From assembly GCA_018063065.1 (NCBI GenBank), contig JAGORB010000004.1, positions 1 to 36,242 of the forward strand: a stretch of 36,242 nt of DNA, read 5' to 3'. Below are positions 14,810 to 18,922 of this stretch, piece after piece. The position numbers and the translations under genes are program-made. The notes beneath the pieces were generated by a model, which ran no database searches, had not been told where the DNA came from, and worked only from the letters and a program-made list of their open reading frames with translations. The stretch is from Minisyncoccota bacterium (GTDB lineage Bacteria > Patescibacteriota > Minisyncoccia > Phycocordibacterales > XYD1-FULL-46-19). Positions within the stretch are counted from its first letter, which is position 1, and every line of letters starts with the position of its first letter.

Positions 14810-15301
14810 ATGGATAAAGTAGAGAATAACTTCGCTTTTATCGATAGTCAGAATGTTTACCGCGGGACCAAAAGGGATTTAGGCTGGAAGATAGATTGGA
14901 AAAAGTTCCGTGTCTACTTGGCACATAAATATCGGGTTACCCAAGCCTACTTATTTATCGGCTTTATACCGGAACATAATGACATTTATGATGAATTACA
15001 AAAAGCCGGCTTCGTTTTAAAATTTAAACCAGTCTTACCTAATGGGGACGGTAGTATAAAAGGTAATGTGGATGCGGATATGGTCCTGCAGACAATGATT
15101 GATTACCCTAATTACGACAAAGCAGTGTTGGTAAGTAGCGATGGTGATTTTTATTCTCTCGCTCGGTATCTTTACGATAATCAAAAACTTCTAGCAGTAA
15201 TAAGTCCTCATCGGCATAAGTGCTCGTCATTATTGCGGAAATCTGCCAAAGAGAAGATGGCTTACATGGATTCTCTCCGAGATAAGATAGCTGCTAGTTA
15301 A
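14810..15301 (+). CDS. NYN/PIN-like (LabA-type) putative ribonuclease
   Basis: The 163-residue protein fits the NYN domain, a PIN-like nuclease fold. Acidic metal-binding residues are at Asp12 (FIDSQNVY), Asp88/Asp90 (GNVDADMVLQ) and Asp111/Asp113 (VSSDGDFYSLARYL), the family's usual set. The PHRHKCSSLLRKSA helix near the C-terminus resembles LabA-type proteins. NYN proteins cut RNA or act as toxin-like nucleases; the target here is unknown. The gene is alone on its transcript, flanked by two copies of the 32-base promoter-like repeat, and stands just upstream of a structured RNA candidate and tRNA-Ser. A link between the nuclease and these RNAs is a guess from position. Confidence 0.88.
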   Translation: MDKVENNFAFIDSQNVYRGTKRDLGWKIDWKKFRVYLAHKYRVTQAYLFIGFIPEHNDIYDELQKAGFVLKFKPVLPNGDGSIKGNVDADMVLQTMIDYPNYDKAVLVSSDGDFYSLARYLYDNQKLLAVISPHRHKCSSLLRKSAKEKMAYMDSLRDKIAAS

Positions 15302-15307
15302 AAGAAA

Positions 15308-15343
15308 AAGCACCGCGTAGGGACGCGCCCTTACGAAGTGCTT
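15308..15343. terminator. Imperfect hairpin after the NYN gene
   Basis: AAGCAC pairs with GTGCTT, and CGTA-GGG inside pairs with CCC-TACG across a small internal loop. The A-rich run is on the left, so the clear U-tract appears only on the minus strand; on the plus strand only CTTCTT follows. It may end NYN transcripts weakly or block minus-strand reading. Confidence 0.5.
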
Positions 15344-15418
15344 CTTCATAGGAATATTTTTAGTATAGCAAACGCTTGTTAAAAGTCAAGCCATGTATCC
15401 ACAATATTAAGGACTTAA

Positions 15419-15450
15419 TTGTAATACCCTAAAATTCGTGTTAAATTGAG
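15419..15450 (+). promoter_or_regulatory. Promoter-like 32-base repeat, copy B (upstream of structured RNA and tRNA-Ser)
   Basis: TTGTAA, 17 bases, TAAATT, 651 bases after copy A. Transcription would start near 15454 and run through the structured RNA candidate and the tRNA-Ser gene, which has no closer promoter that I can see. Confidence 0.6.
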
Positions 15451-15480
15451 CCTGTTTTAGGAGACGTGCCTTAGTAAATA

Positions 15481-15500
15481 ATGGAGACGTGGCTGAGTGG
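15481..15500 (+). repeat. Copy of the tRNA-Ser 5' end (20 bases)
   Basis: These 20 bases are identical to 15617-15636, which cover the acceptor strand and D-arm start of tRNA-Ser. A shorter copy (GGAGACGTG) lies at 15460-15468. The rest of the tRNA is not repeated here. Confidence 0.9.
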
Positions 15501-15609
15501 ATGAAATATGAACTGCTTCATATTTCATCCGGTCCCGAGAATACGGGAACAGCCTATGCCGCAAGGCAGGCTGTAGGAGGACGACTTGTCGACCGCCAGC
15601 CCGACTCCA
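15482..15609 (+). ncRNA. Structured RNA candidate closed by a tRNA-Ser-like strand
   Basis: The 5' strand (TGGAGACG, GGCTG, GTGG, from 15482) pairs with the 3' strand (CCGC, CAGCC, CGACTCCA, to 15609): 16 pairs, one A-A mismatch and two one-base bulges. Inside are three hairpins: a perfect 12 to 14 base stem around loop CTGC (15499-15530), TCCCG/CGGGA (15533-15548), and CAGCCT-GCC-GCAA-GGC-AGGCTG with a GNRA tetraloop (15550-15573). This makes a multibranched fold with no T-loop sequence, so it is not a normal tRNA. SRP RNA, tmRNA, RNase P and T-box signatures were looked for and not found. It could be a processed small RNA, a tRNA-derived decoy, or a folded DNA element. Confidence 0.5.
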
Positions 15610-15618
15610 GTGCAACAT

Positions 15619-15705
15619 GGAGACGTGGCTGAGTGGTCGAAAGCGCCTCACTGCTAACGAGGTAGGGTCTAAACACCCTCCAGGGTTCGAATCCCTGCGT
15701 CTCCG
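15619..15705 (+). tRNA. serX: tRNA-Ser (anticodon GCU)
   Basis: An 87-base class II tRNA: acceptor GGAGACG/CGTCTCC with discriminator G, D-arm GCTGAGTGG...AGC, anticodon loop CTGCTAA with GCT, a long variable arm (TAGGGT/ACCCT) and the T-arm CAGGGTTCGAATCCCTG. The 3' CCA is not encoded. The last pair of the anticodon stem is an A-C mismatch as written. It reads AGC/AGU codons. The restriction island begins about 90 bases downstream. Confidence 0.93.
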
Positions 15706-15761
15706 CAACGACATTTTAATACAATCTAATCAAATTAAAAGTTTAGCCTTTAATCTTTAAT

Positions 15762-15790
15762 TTGACAAGATGGTACTATAGGTATATACT
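15762..15790 (+). promoter_or_regulatory. Near-consensus promoter of the Fic/type I restriction operon
   Basis: TTGACA (15762-15767), 17 bases, TATACT (15785-15790), then 7 bases to the ATG at 15798. This is the best promoter in the window. It shows that codons upstream of 15798 are not translated and that the first gene is leaderless. Confidence 0.85.
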
Positions 15791-15797
15791 GCTTTTT

Positions 15798-16931
15798 ATG
15801 AGTAAATTTAAGGCGGGAACCTATAAACAATACCACGGCTACAAGAGCTTTCAGCCGTCTTTGGTCAATAAAGATTTTGAATGGAATGACAAGCGCATTG
15901 ACGTGCTTCTTGCTGATGCCATGAGATACCTCGGCGAGCTCAACGCTTTTTCAAAGTTGGTCCCCGACGTGGATTTTTTCATAAAAATGCATATCGCAAA
16001 AGAAGCTACCACCTCAAGCAAGATCGAGGGTACTCAGACTAAACTCGATGAGGCACTTCTCCCCGAACTTGAAATTGATCCAGAAAAAAGAAATGACTGG
16101 GAAGAAGTTCAAAACTATGTCAAAGCGATCAATTACTCAATAGCAGAACTTGAAAAGTTGCCGCTATCAATGCGACTTGCAAGAGATACGCACAAAGTAT
16201 TACTTTCAAGTGTTCGTGGATACACAAAATTGCCAGGAGAAGTTCGCCGAAGCCAAAACTGGATCGGTGGCGCAACTCTTAAAGATGCAGTATTCATTCC
16301 ACCTCATCATGACGAAGTTGGAGAGTTACTCAGCGATCTTGAAAGATTCTGGCACAACAAAGAGTTGGATGTTCCAGATCTTATAAAGATTGCCATCTCA
16401 CATTACCAGTTCGAAACCATCCACCCATTCCTTGATGGTAACGGACGTATCGGCCGACTCCTCATCACACTCCACTTGGTAAGCCTCGGTATTCTACAGA
16501 AACCAACTCTCTATATTTCAGATTTCTTTGAAAAGCATCGTCCGCAATACTACGATGGTCTTTCACGTGTTCGAGAGACGAACGATATTGAACATTGGCT
16601 GCGCTTCTTTCTTACAGGTGTACTTGAGACTGCGAAGAATTCTCGACAGACACTTGAGAAGATTATCGACCTTCGAAAGAAGTACGAAATGACAATCGAA
16701 AAAGGCATGGGTATCAAACGCCAAAAGCTTGGCAAGGAACTTTTGCGTTGTTTGTTCTCACATCCAGTTGTAACGATTCGAGACATCGAATCAATGCTCT
16801 CGGTGACATTCCCAACAGCGTCAGCAATAACGAAAGATTTCGTCAAACTTGGTTTGTTCTCAGAGAAAACTGGGCTCAAGAAGGATCGAATCTTCTACCT
16901 CACTGAATACATTAATCTCTTTAATAAATAA
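15798..16931 (+). CDS. Fic-family AMP-transferase with N-terminal inhibitory motif
   Basis: Fic enzymes transfer AMP (or other groups) to protein hydroxyls. The catalytic motif [13 protein letters not shown] begins at His209. The N-terminal inhibitory motif (S/T)xxxE(G/N) is visible as Ser73-SKI-Glu77-Gly78, so the enzyme should be self-inhibited (class II). The C-terminal third (about 300-377) looks like a winged helix ([31 protein letters not shown]), so it may also bind DNA. The 377-residue length fits the large Fic/DUF4172-like group. The start at 15798 follows from the promoter. It leads the restriction operon, with hsdM 8 bases downstream; Fic genes are often found in such loci, perhaps as regulators or backup toxins. 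Confidence 0.93.
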
Positions 16932-16939
16932 TCAACACC

Positions 16940-18922
16940 ATGGAAAATTTCAACCAAAAAACATCAATGATTTGGAATATCGCCGACATCTTGCGCGGCG
17001 GCTGGAAACAGCATGAATACCAGGACGTGATTCTGCCCTTGGTGGTTTTGAAGCGCCTCGATTCTATCCTTGCCGATACCAAAGCTTCGGTCCTTGAGAA
17101 GTACAATGAGTATAAAGGCAAAGTGAATGACCTTGACCCCATCCTCAAGAAGACTTCAGGTACAGCCTTCTACAATATCTCTGATTACGATTTCAGAACT
17201 ATTCTTGGAGAGCCAAAGCATCTCGCAAAAAACTTCAAACAATACATCAATGGGTACAGCAAGAATATCCAAGACATCTTTGAAAAGTTTGATTTCAGCA
17301 AACAGCTCGAGCGACTCGAAGGTGGCGATCTCTTGTTCTATGTGATCCAGGAATTGAACAAGGTGGATCTGCACCCTTCAAAGGTAGACAACTATCAGAT
17401 GGGTCACATCTTCGAAGAACTTCTCCGAAAGTTTTCTGAAATGTCCAACGAAACTGCCGGAGAGCACTACACGCCAAGAGATGTGATTGGGCTTATGACT
17501 GAGATGCTGTTCTCCCCTGACAAGAAGGACCTCAAGAAGCCTCACGTTATTAAAAAGATTTATGACCCCGCCTGCGGTACCGGTGGCATGCTTTCTGTTG
17601 CCAAGGACTACATTCTAGAAAACATAAATAAAGAAGCTGATATTTTCCTTTACGGCCAGGAACTCAACTCGGTTACATACGCTATGGCAAAGTCAGACAT
17701 GCTTATCAAGGGAGATGATCCTGACCTTATTCGAGGTGGCGAAAAAGATCATTCGAAAGCAAGTACGCTTGCCAACGATCAATTCTTTTCTGAAGTATTT
17801 GATTATGGGCTAAGCAATCCGCCCTATGGAGTTGATTGGAAGAAGGACAAAGATGCTGTTGAGCGTGAAGCATCTCGTGGATACGCTGGTAGATTTGGTG
17901 CAGGTACTCCTCGTATCTCAGATGGTCAGCTTTTGTTCTTGCAACACCTCATTTCAAAGATGAAGCCTGAAAAAGATGGTGGCTCACGTATAGCGATCGT
18001 TCACAACGGGTCCCCACTATTTACTGGCGATGCCGGTAGCGGAGAAAGTGAGATTCGAAGATGGATTCTTGAAAAGGATCTGCTCGAGACAATCGTCGCA
18101 TTGCCTGATCAGCTTTTCTATAACACAGGAATCAATACATACCTTTGGTTTGTCACCAACAGAAAATCAAAAGAAAGAAAAGGTAAGGTTCAGCTTATAG
18201 ATGCTCGAGCTCTCTTCAAGAAGACTCGCAAGAGCCTTGGTAGCAAACGACATGAGATTGACACTGAACACAAAAAACAAATCTTGGATTTGTACGAAAC
18301 ATTTGAGGAAAATGAACACTCAAAGATTTTCAAGACAACAGACTTTGCATACAGACAGATCACCATTGAGCGCCCTCTCCGCCTCAAGCTCGATTTCACC
18401 CCAGAGAAAATAAAGGAGATTACAGCAACTCTTGATCCAAGCGCTGTTAAAGCTGGCGTGAAGACACTCATAGAATCCTTCGAGAATCAGATATACATGA
18501 GCAAGAAGGTGTTCGAAGAAGCCTTTGATAAAAGGGTTGAGCAGTATGTATCCGGCAAGCTTACCGCCGCACTCTACAAGAAAATCCTTTCTACATTTAG
18601 TGAAAGCGATCCGGAAGCCGATGTTGTGCTTAATAAGAACGGCGATCCAGAGGCAGATACATCTTTGCGTGATTTTGAGAATGTTCCATATGAGATGGAT
18701 ATCAAGGAATATTTTGATAAAGAGGTAAAGCCATACGTGCCTGATGCTTGGATTAATGAATCGGTCCGAGATCACAAAGACGGCAAGGTTGGTATCGTGG
18801 GCTACGAGATTCCATTCACTCGCCACTTCTACAAGTACGAGGGCCCACGAAGTCTTGAGGAAATAGAGACTGACATAGAAAAGGTTGAGAATGAATTACT
18901 CACCCTCCTAAAGCAACTCTAA
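16940..18922 (+). CDS. hsdM: Type I restriction-modification methyltransferase subunit HsdM
   Basis: The modification subunit transfers a methyl group from S-adenosylmethionine to adenine. An HsdM N-terminal helical domain (1-150: IWNIADILRGGWKQHEYQDVILPLVVLKRL) precedes the methyltransferase fold with motif I DPACGTGGML near residue 209 and the catalytic motif NPPYG near 293. The AGEHYTPRDVIGLM stretch before motif I is typical. At 660 residues it is longer than many HsdM, with extra C-terminal helices that may contact HsdS. It is 4 bases from hsdS, without a Shine-Dalgarno sequence. All key residues are intact. Confidence 0.96.
   Translation: MENFNQKTSMIWNIADILRGGWKQHEYQDVILPLVVLKRLDSILADTKASVLEKYNEYKGKVNDLDPILKKTSGTAFYNISDYDFRTILGEPKHLAKNFKQYINGYSKNIQDIFEKFDFSKQLERLEGGDLLFYVIQELNKVDLHPSKVDNYQMGHIFEELLRKFSEMSNETAGEHYTPRDVIGLMTEMLFSPDKKDLKKPHVIKKIYDPACGTGGMLSVAKDYILENINKEADIFLYGQELNSVTYAMAKSDMLIKGDDPDLIRGGEKDHSKASTLANDQFFSEVFDYGLSNPPYGVDWKKDKDAVEREASRGYAGRFGAGTPRISDGQLLFLQHLISKMKPEKDGGSRIAIVHNGSPLFTGDAGSGESEIRRWILEKDLLETIVALPDQLFYNTGINTYLWFVTNRKSKERKGKVQLIDARALFKKTRKSLGSKRHEIDTEHKKQILDLYETFEENEHSKIFKTTDFAYRQITIERPLRLKLDFTPEKIKEITATLDPSAVKAGVKTLIESFENQIYMSKKVFEEAFDKRVEQYVSGKLTAALYKKILSTFSESDPEADVVLNKNGDPEADTSLRDFENVPYEMDIKEYFDKEVKPYVPDAWINESVRDHKDGKVGIVGYEIPFTRHFYKYEGPRSLEEIETDIEKVENELLTLLKQL

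Follow-up and report, generated by a model that had tools for sequence, protein, structure and literature searches.

A palindrome-rich, probably mobile element of Parcubacteria inserted in a partial copy of tRNA-Ser(GCU)

Organization and fold of the locus

In the window (the whole stretch of 36,242 nucleotides that was analysed), an intact tRNA-Ser(GCU) gene is preceded by a direct copy of its own start, a hairpin-rich core and an inverted copy of its head, the last ending 9 nt before the intact gene. The genes around this locus (14810-18922) code for a NYN-domain protein, a Fic/DOC protein and a type I restriction methylase (HsdM-like). The parts of the locus are the following:

15481-15500, + strand: direct copy of the start of tRNA-Ser(GCU), nt -2 to 18 (ATGGAGACGTGGCTGAGTGG), its right end being the GG of the D-loop; from the sequence, with nt 1-18 exact in the table of head copies
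15499-15580, + strand: core of 82 bases, probably mobile, comprising H1, H2, H3 and AGGAGG, with its first GG common to core and tRNA copy; from the match to covariance model R1, homologues and covariation
15499-15530, + strand: hairpin H1, 14 Watson-Crick pairs, loop CTGC, motif AACTGCTT; from fold and covariation
15533-15548, + strand: hairpin H2, TCCCG...CGGGA; from fold and covariation
15549-15574, + strand: hairpin H3, with a GCAA tetraloop in the window and GAGCGAAGCGA at that place in most relatives; from fold, alignment and covariation
15575-15580, + strand: conserved right end AGGAGG, AGG(A/T)GG in relatives; from relatives
15588-15609, + strand: diverged inverted copy of the tRNA head, free of the insert, which closes the fold
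15619-15706, + strand: intact tRNA-Ser(GCU); from ARAGORN and Rfam

The original prediction described 15482-15609 as a self-closed multibranched RNA whose 5' strand repeats the beginning of tRNA-Ser(GCU), and this strand is indeed an exact copy of tRNA nt -2 to 18 (20 nt). The strand at 15588-15609 reads GTCGACCGCCAGCCCGACTCCA, the expected inverted head being CTTTCGACCACTCAGCCACGTCTCCA, and its inverted-copy score of 15 was equalled by none of 500 shuffles. RNA folding of 15482-15609 gave a minimum free energy (MFE) of -65.4 kcal/mol against -36.5 +/- 3.9 for shuffled sequences (z -7.4; 0 of 200 as low), and folding with DNA parameters was comparably strong (z -7.9). In the MFE structure the first bases pair with 15588-15609 and the predicted A-A mismatch is present, but the closing stem has 14 pairs where 16 were claimed; the enclosed hairpins are as well real, four rather than three in number, the fourth being weak. 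The perfect stem of 12 to 14 bases corresponds to H1 with its 14 pairs, and the GNRA-capped hairpin to H3. The view that the region is not a second tRNA agrees with ARAGORN and Rfam, which report one tRNA only, at 15619-15706, and find no cloverleaf with a T-arm in 15482-15609. Across the window and five homologous loci, tRNA was the only Rfam family over the gathering threshold, and no group I or group II intron catalytic core was matched.

Pairing of the 3' strand with the head of the true tRNA, likewise proposed, is possible on paper and is used by the global MFE structure of 15470-15712 (-116.4). The separately folded, modular state of the same region lies at -99.7, i.e. 16.7 kcal/mol above it. 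When the transcript stops at 15612 or 15630, the MFE structure is the self-closed form, and the alternative pairing is dominant by 15650. As suggested by these models, an effect on tRNA processing through misfolding is thermodynamically possible.

A family of dispersed copies

A search of relatives with the region and its tRNA revealed that several genera have similar DNA upstream of tRNA-Ser, and one genome upstream of tRNA-Thr. The better-preserved copies present the same order of parts: a tRNA head copy, H1 with the AACTGCTT loop, H2, H3, AGG(A/T)GG, a small fourth hairpin and a strand complementary to the head of the host tRNA. Using the covariance model R1, built from seven sequences, the conserved core (~82-92 nt) was found in 119 of the 397 genomes of the host's order, with up to nine copies per genome. 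Outside this order the core is rare in the phylum, as a sample drawn from the phylum contained it in 12 of 380 genomes, eight of them from the host's own order or genome. The exact H1 pattern was present in 17 stretches among 84,980 genomes, all from Parcubacteria (Adler-, Campbell-, Nomura-, Zambryski-, Kaiser-, Vogelbacteria and others) or, in two cases, labelled 'bacterium'; viral contigs gave 0 matches. An assembly artefact, considered on account of several copies at contig ends, is excluded as a general cause because copies occur in closed chromosomes; CP011215.1 carries several.

One genome (G018) holds five copies in tRNAs Ser, Thr, Lys, Val and Lys, with cores 85-99% and heads 57-81% identical. 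In another (G042) the tRNA-Leu(UAG) gene is free of the insert that two congeneric species carry there. The copies form a family spread in multiple copies, and the element has the attributes by which palindromic repeats are recognized, being short, hairpin-forming, dispersed, multi-copy and non-coding. It has no gene of its own and is previously unnamed, and no such elements in CPR tRNA genes were found in the open-access literature.

Conservation and covariation of the hairpins

A covariance check in relatives had been proposed, with absence of conservation or compensation to count against the fold; the structure proved conserved, with many compensatory changes. Among 77 distinct sequences, whose alignment was fitted to the model and hence leans towards it, all 39 modelled pairs showed two-sided changes (0 of 500 shuffles as high), and 91.9% of cells pair, compared with 70.1% for shuffled sequences and 40-54% for slid controls. 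A similar result came from the seven-sequence MAFFT set (91.0% vs 76.1% in shuffles).

The share of G-U among the pairs of H1-H3 is only ~1.7% (32 of ~1,850), a near absence such as a DNA palindrome would give. Furthermore, in the G018 copies the inner H1 stem is swapped whole (ACAGAA/TTCTGT, AGCAAA/TTTGCT, ACACAA/TTGTGT) while the remainder is nearly constant, which looks like correction of the palindrome by template switching. Hence the covariation need not imply selection on an RNA, since such correction could produce two-sided changes without structural selection.

Insertion sites

A tRNA gene lies within 330 bp of 53 of the 67 copies examined, and 52 of these copies share its orientation; the other 14 have no tRNA within that distance. 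The tRNA-near copies are located upstream (41) or downstream (11) of tRNAs for Ser, Thr, Lys, Val, Leu, Phe, Asn, Tyr, Glu, Gln, Ile and others. In the 40 upstream copies tabulated, the left side is mostly a tRNA copy that starts at nt 1 and stops exactly at the D-loop GG, so that the element sits in the D-loop; other left copies end in the anticodon loop of tRNA-Leu or at the D-loop TTA of tRNA-Glu. To the right of the core follow a few tRNA bases, then an inverted, uninterrupted part of the tRNA and finally the intact tRNA. The inverted copy was significant (p<0.05) in 28 of the 40 and went undetected in 12, including the Leu D-loop, Phe and some Ser and Tyr copies, which indicates that the step leaving an inverted copy is not universal. 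The closing stem was rejected as a conserved part, its pairing with the left copy being significant in only 30% of upstream cases.

A mirrored layout, in which an intact tRNA-Thr is followed by an inverted part and then by an interrupted 3' part, was found at three loci (L131, L110, L096). At L096 one tRNA-Thr half copy contains both the element, in its D-loop, and a GIY-YIG gene, in its T-loop. With regard to features of the MITE type, the direct copies measure ~20 bp upward and vary, and the inverted ends derive from the host tRNA.

Other small inserts were observed in similar surroundings. In copied heads of tRNA-Ser, inserts of 12-28 nt separate GTGGC from TGAG (L047, L049, L087, L184) and hold a short inverted GGCTGA copy, a small direct-plus-inverted pattern. 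A 20-bp palindrome like CCTGCCTGCCGGCAGGCAGG occurs in half-tRNA copies and elsewhere (L097, L098, L099, L179). Composite inserts 3' of tRNAs (L034, L038, L039, L041, L045) contain the 3' part of the tRNA, copied in inverted and in direct orientation, together with other hairpins, and some of them look like a different element.

Copies were also found outside tRNA genes. In G029 a copy interrupts the only detected 23S rRNA gene, in sense and in a short hairpin loop (L124:1033-1143), and a match in another genus of the same family (G111:C31:15644-15750) spans the place matching this insert. The 23S gene region of G029 contains as well a second repeat of ~80 bp that has many copies in that genome. 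Copies remote from tRNAs may have long outer stems (L127, L140). At one locus (L099:316-701) a copy lies ~340 bp downstream of a tmRNA gene, and beyond it is a fragment resembling the tmRNA 3' end.

Candidate helper proteins

Y1_Tnp was not detected in G018, G279, G053, G101, G128, G157, G166 and G247, nor was the RVT_1 reverse transcriptase in G018, G101, G029, G120 and other carriers. TnpB was undetected in G018, with its five similar copies, and in other carriers, and the same holds for small GIY-YIG proteins, apart from one weak GIY-YIG match in G018; one weak GIY-YIG match was found in G042 (8 copies) and none in G001. As carriers exist in which each of them is undetected, the Y1 transposase, GIY-YIG, reverse transcriptase and TnpB were rejected as universal helpers. 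Incomplete genomes or helpers supplied in trans are a possible account of these results. Since no transposase was identified in G018, it is only from the distribution of copies that we strongly infer mobility of the element.

Of 39 small GIY-YIG genes, 19 have a tRNA at a distance of 500 bp or less, ~8% being expected as estimated from an assumed 45 tRNAs per 700 kb. Several of the tRNA-adjacent genes are accompanied by partial copies of the adjacent tRNA; the core was absent from the GIY-YIG inserts inspected. Small GIY-YIG genes stand directly beside tRNAs at L153, L154, L156, L162, L168, L170, L171, L174, L179, L182, L184, L186 and L189; the adjoining tRNAs are those for Ser, His, Gln, Val, Ala, Pro, Asn, Leu and Gly, and at several of these loci the tRNA is partly copied, in direct or inverted orientation. 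The window's own genome has two GIY-YIG loci, adjoining tRNA-Ser(UGA) and tRNA-His.

Interpretation

We consider it likely that the locus in the window is a single copy of a mobile element of Parcubacteria, small, rich in palindromes and non-coding, that targets the loops of RNA genes. The original prediction had offered three guesses for the fold. A tRNA-mimicking small RNA and a tRNA processing switch both fail to explain why the same core stands at a dozen tRNA kinds, within 23S rRNA and at sites unrelated to tRNAs, with closing strands that vary with the host gene. The third, a folded DNA recombination site, came nearest, when read as the folded DNA of a mobile or recombination element.

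How the element would insert can be proposed tentatively, and we give single-strand insertion with template switching somewhat less than an even chance. The element would move as a folded single strand and join hairpin loops that are exposed in RNA genes. Template switching during replication or repair by the host would resolve the joining, and the intact gene would be left together with a partial direct copy and an inverted one. Survival would be limited to events that preserve a working tRNA. The self-closed fold of the window would thus consist of the hairpins of the insert plus a host-derived inverted copy. After insertion, the latter might keep the surplus tRNA head self-paired until transcription reaches the true tRNA; that the tRNA gains from the closed fold is speculative. 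A bolder version, in our view unlikely, supposes a transposase-free mobile nucleic acid that recognises loops in stable, folded RNAs, or else the single-stranded DNA corresponding to them, and inserts in sense, its integration rebuilding an intact tRNA and leaving direct and inverted half copies.

Mobility at the RNA level, whereby the element RNA would insert into exposed loops of tRNA or rRNA and a reverse transcriptase would copy the product back into DNA, would suit the co-orientation of 52 of the 53 tRNA-near copies, the insertions in D-, anticodon- and probably variable loops and the sense copy in a short 23S hairpin loop. Orientation would, however, be equally fixed by D-loop targeting of DNA, and the scarcity of G-U pairs in H1-H3 together with the lack of detected reverse transcriptases in G018, G101, G029, G120 and other carriers makes this route quite improbable. 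Equally low is the probability that the element is a non-autonomous satellite of the small GIY-YIG elements, which occupy the same tRNA genes. Their closeness to tRNAs (19 of 39 within 500 bp), the partial tRNA copies beside several of them and the shared tRNA-Thr half copy of L096 speak for such a link; against it stand the single weak matches in G018 and G042, with five and eight copies of the element, the lack of any in G001 and the coreless GIY-YIG inserts.

An RNA regulator in the tRNA leader, in which the inverted strand would switch between the copied and the true tRNA head and so control maturation, is very unlikely. The alternative pairing is the global MFE of 15470-15712, 16.7 kcal/mol below the modular state, and the intact tRNA begins only 9 nt further on, but such a switch sits badly with 12 of 40 upstream cases where no inverted copy was detected, with 11 copies downstream of tRNAs and with those in 23S and far from tRNAs. 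An old local tRNA pseudogene duplicate with chance hairpins would explain the tRNA-derived 5' strand; it is refuted by the homologues, in which the core is kept across genera and tRNA kinds with covariation, and its probability is practically negligible.

The mobile, loop-targeting element that we favour would be an example of a selfish hairpin that targets a tRNA gene without killing the host. Despite the tiny genomes of Parcubacteria, ~30% of the sampled genomes in the order carry it, mostly at essential RNA genes. It may account for odd tRNA leaders, for half tRNAs and for part of the short rRNA inserts that are unclassified, and offers a concrete system for studying how hairpin elements without a known transposase move.

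Comparison with known systems

Rickettsia palindromic elements (RPE) and similar repeats are non-coding, hairpin-forming, multi-copy sequences of ~100 bp, without a transposase of their own, which also occur inside genes. The present element is like them, by description, in size, hairpins, copy number and absence of its own transposase; RPE belong to another phylum, and the element usually targets a loop within a half copy of a tRNA and is accompanied by direct as well as inverted copies of that tRNA. REP/RAYT repeats are small and hairpin-forming, and Y1 transposases are presumed to move them in trans. The element is as well a small hairpin repeat, but Y1_Tnp was undetected in several of its carriers and the GTAG-hairpin arrangement was not recognised in it. 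Known group I introns are much longer than the element; those in bacterial tRNA genes are likewise structured inserts, whereas the element lies in half copies and not in the functional gene. Free-standing GIY-YIG homing endonuclease genes share the tRNA hot spots and the partial tRNA copies, but are protein-coding, unlike the gene-less element.

A survey of rRNA insertions in CPR bacteria described numerous short inserts, unclassified and located close to the tips of stem-loops, as well as GIY-YIG inserts that do not resemble introns; tRNA is absent from its main text (PMC11270868). The short non-intron inserts of CPR 23S, with the intervening sequences (IVS) cleaved by RNase III, are, like the element, short and ORF-less, and one element copy lies in 23S; the surveyed inserts are unclassified and rRNA-borne (PMC11270868), whereas the element has a defined fold and is found for the most part in tRNA genes. 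In its general behaviour it resembles other palindromic repeats, but it matches no Rfam family and is set apart by the targeting of tRNA loops with linked direct and inverted copies.
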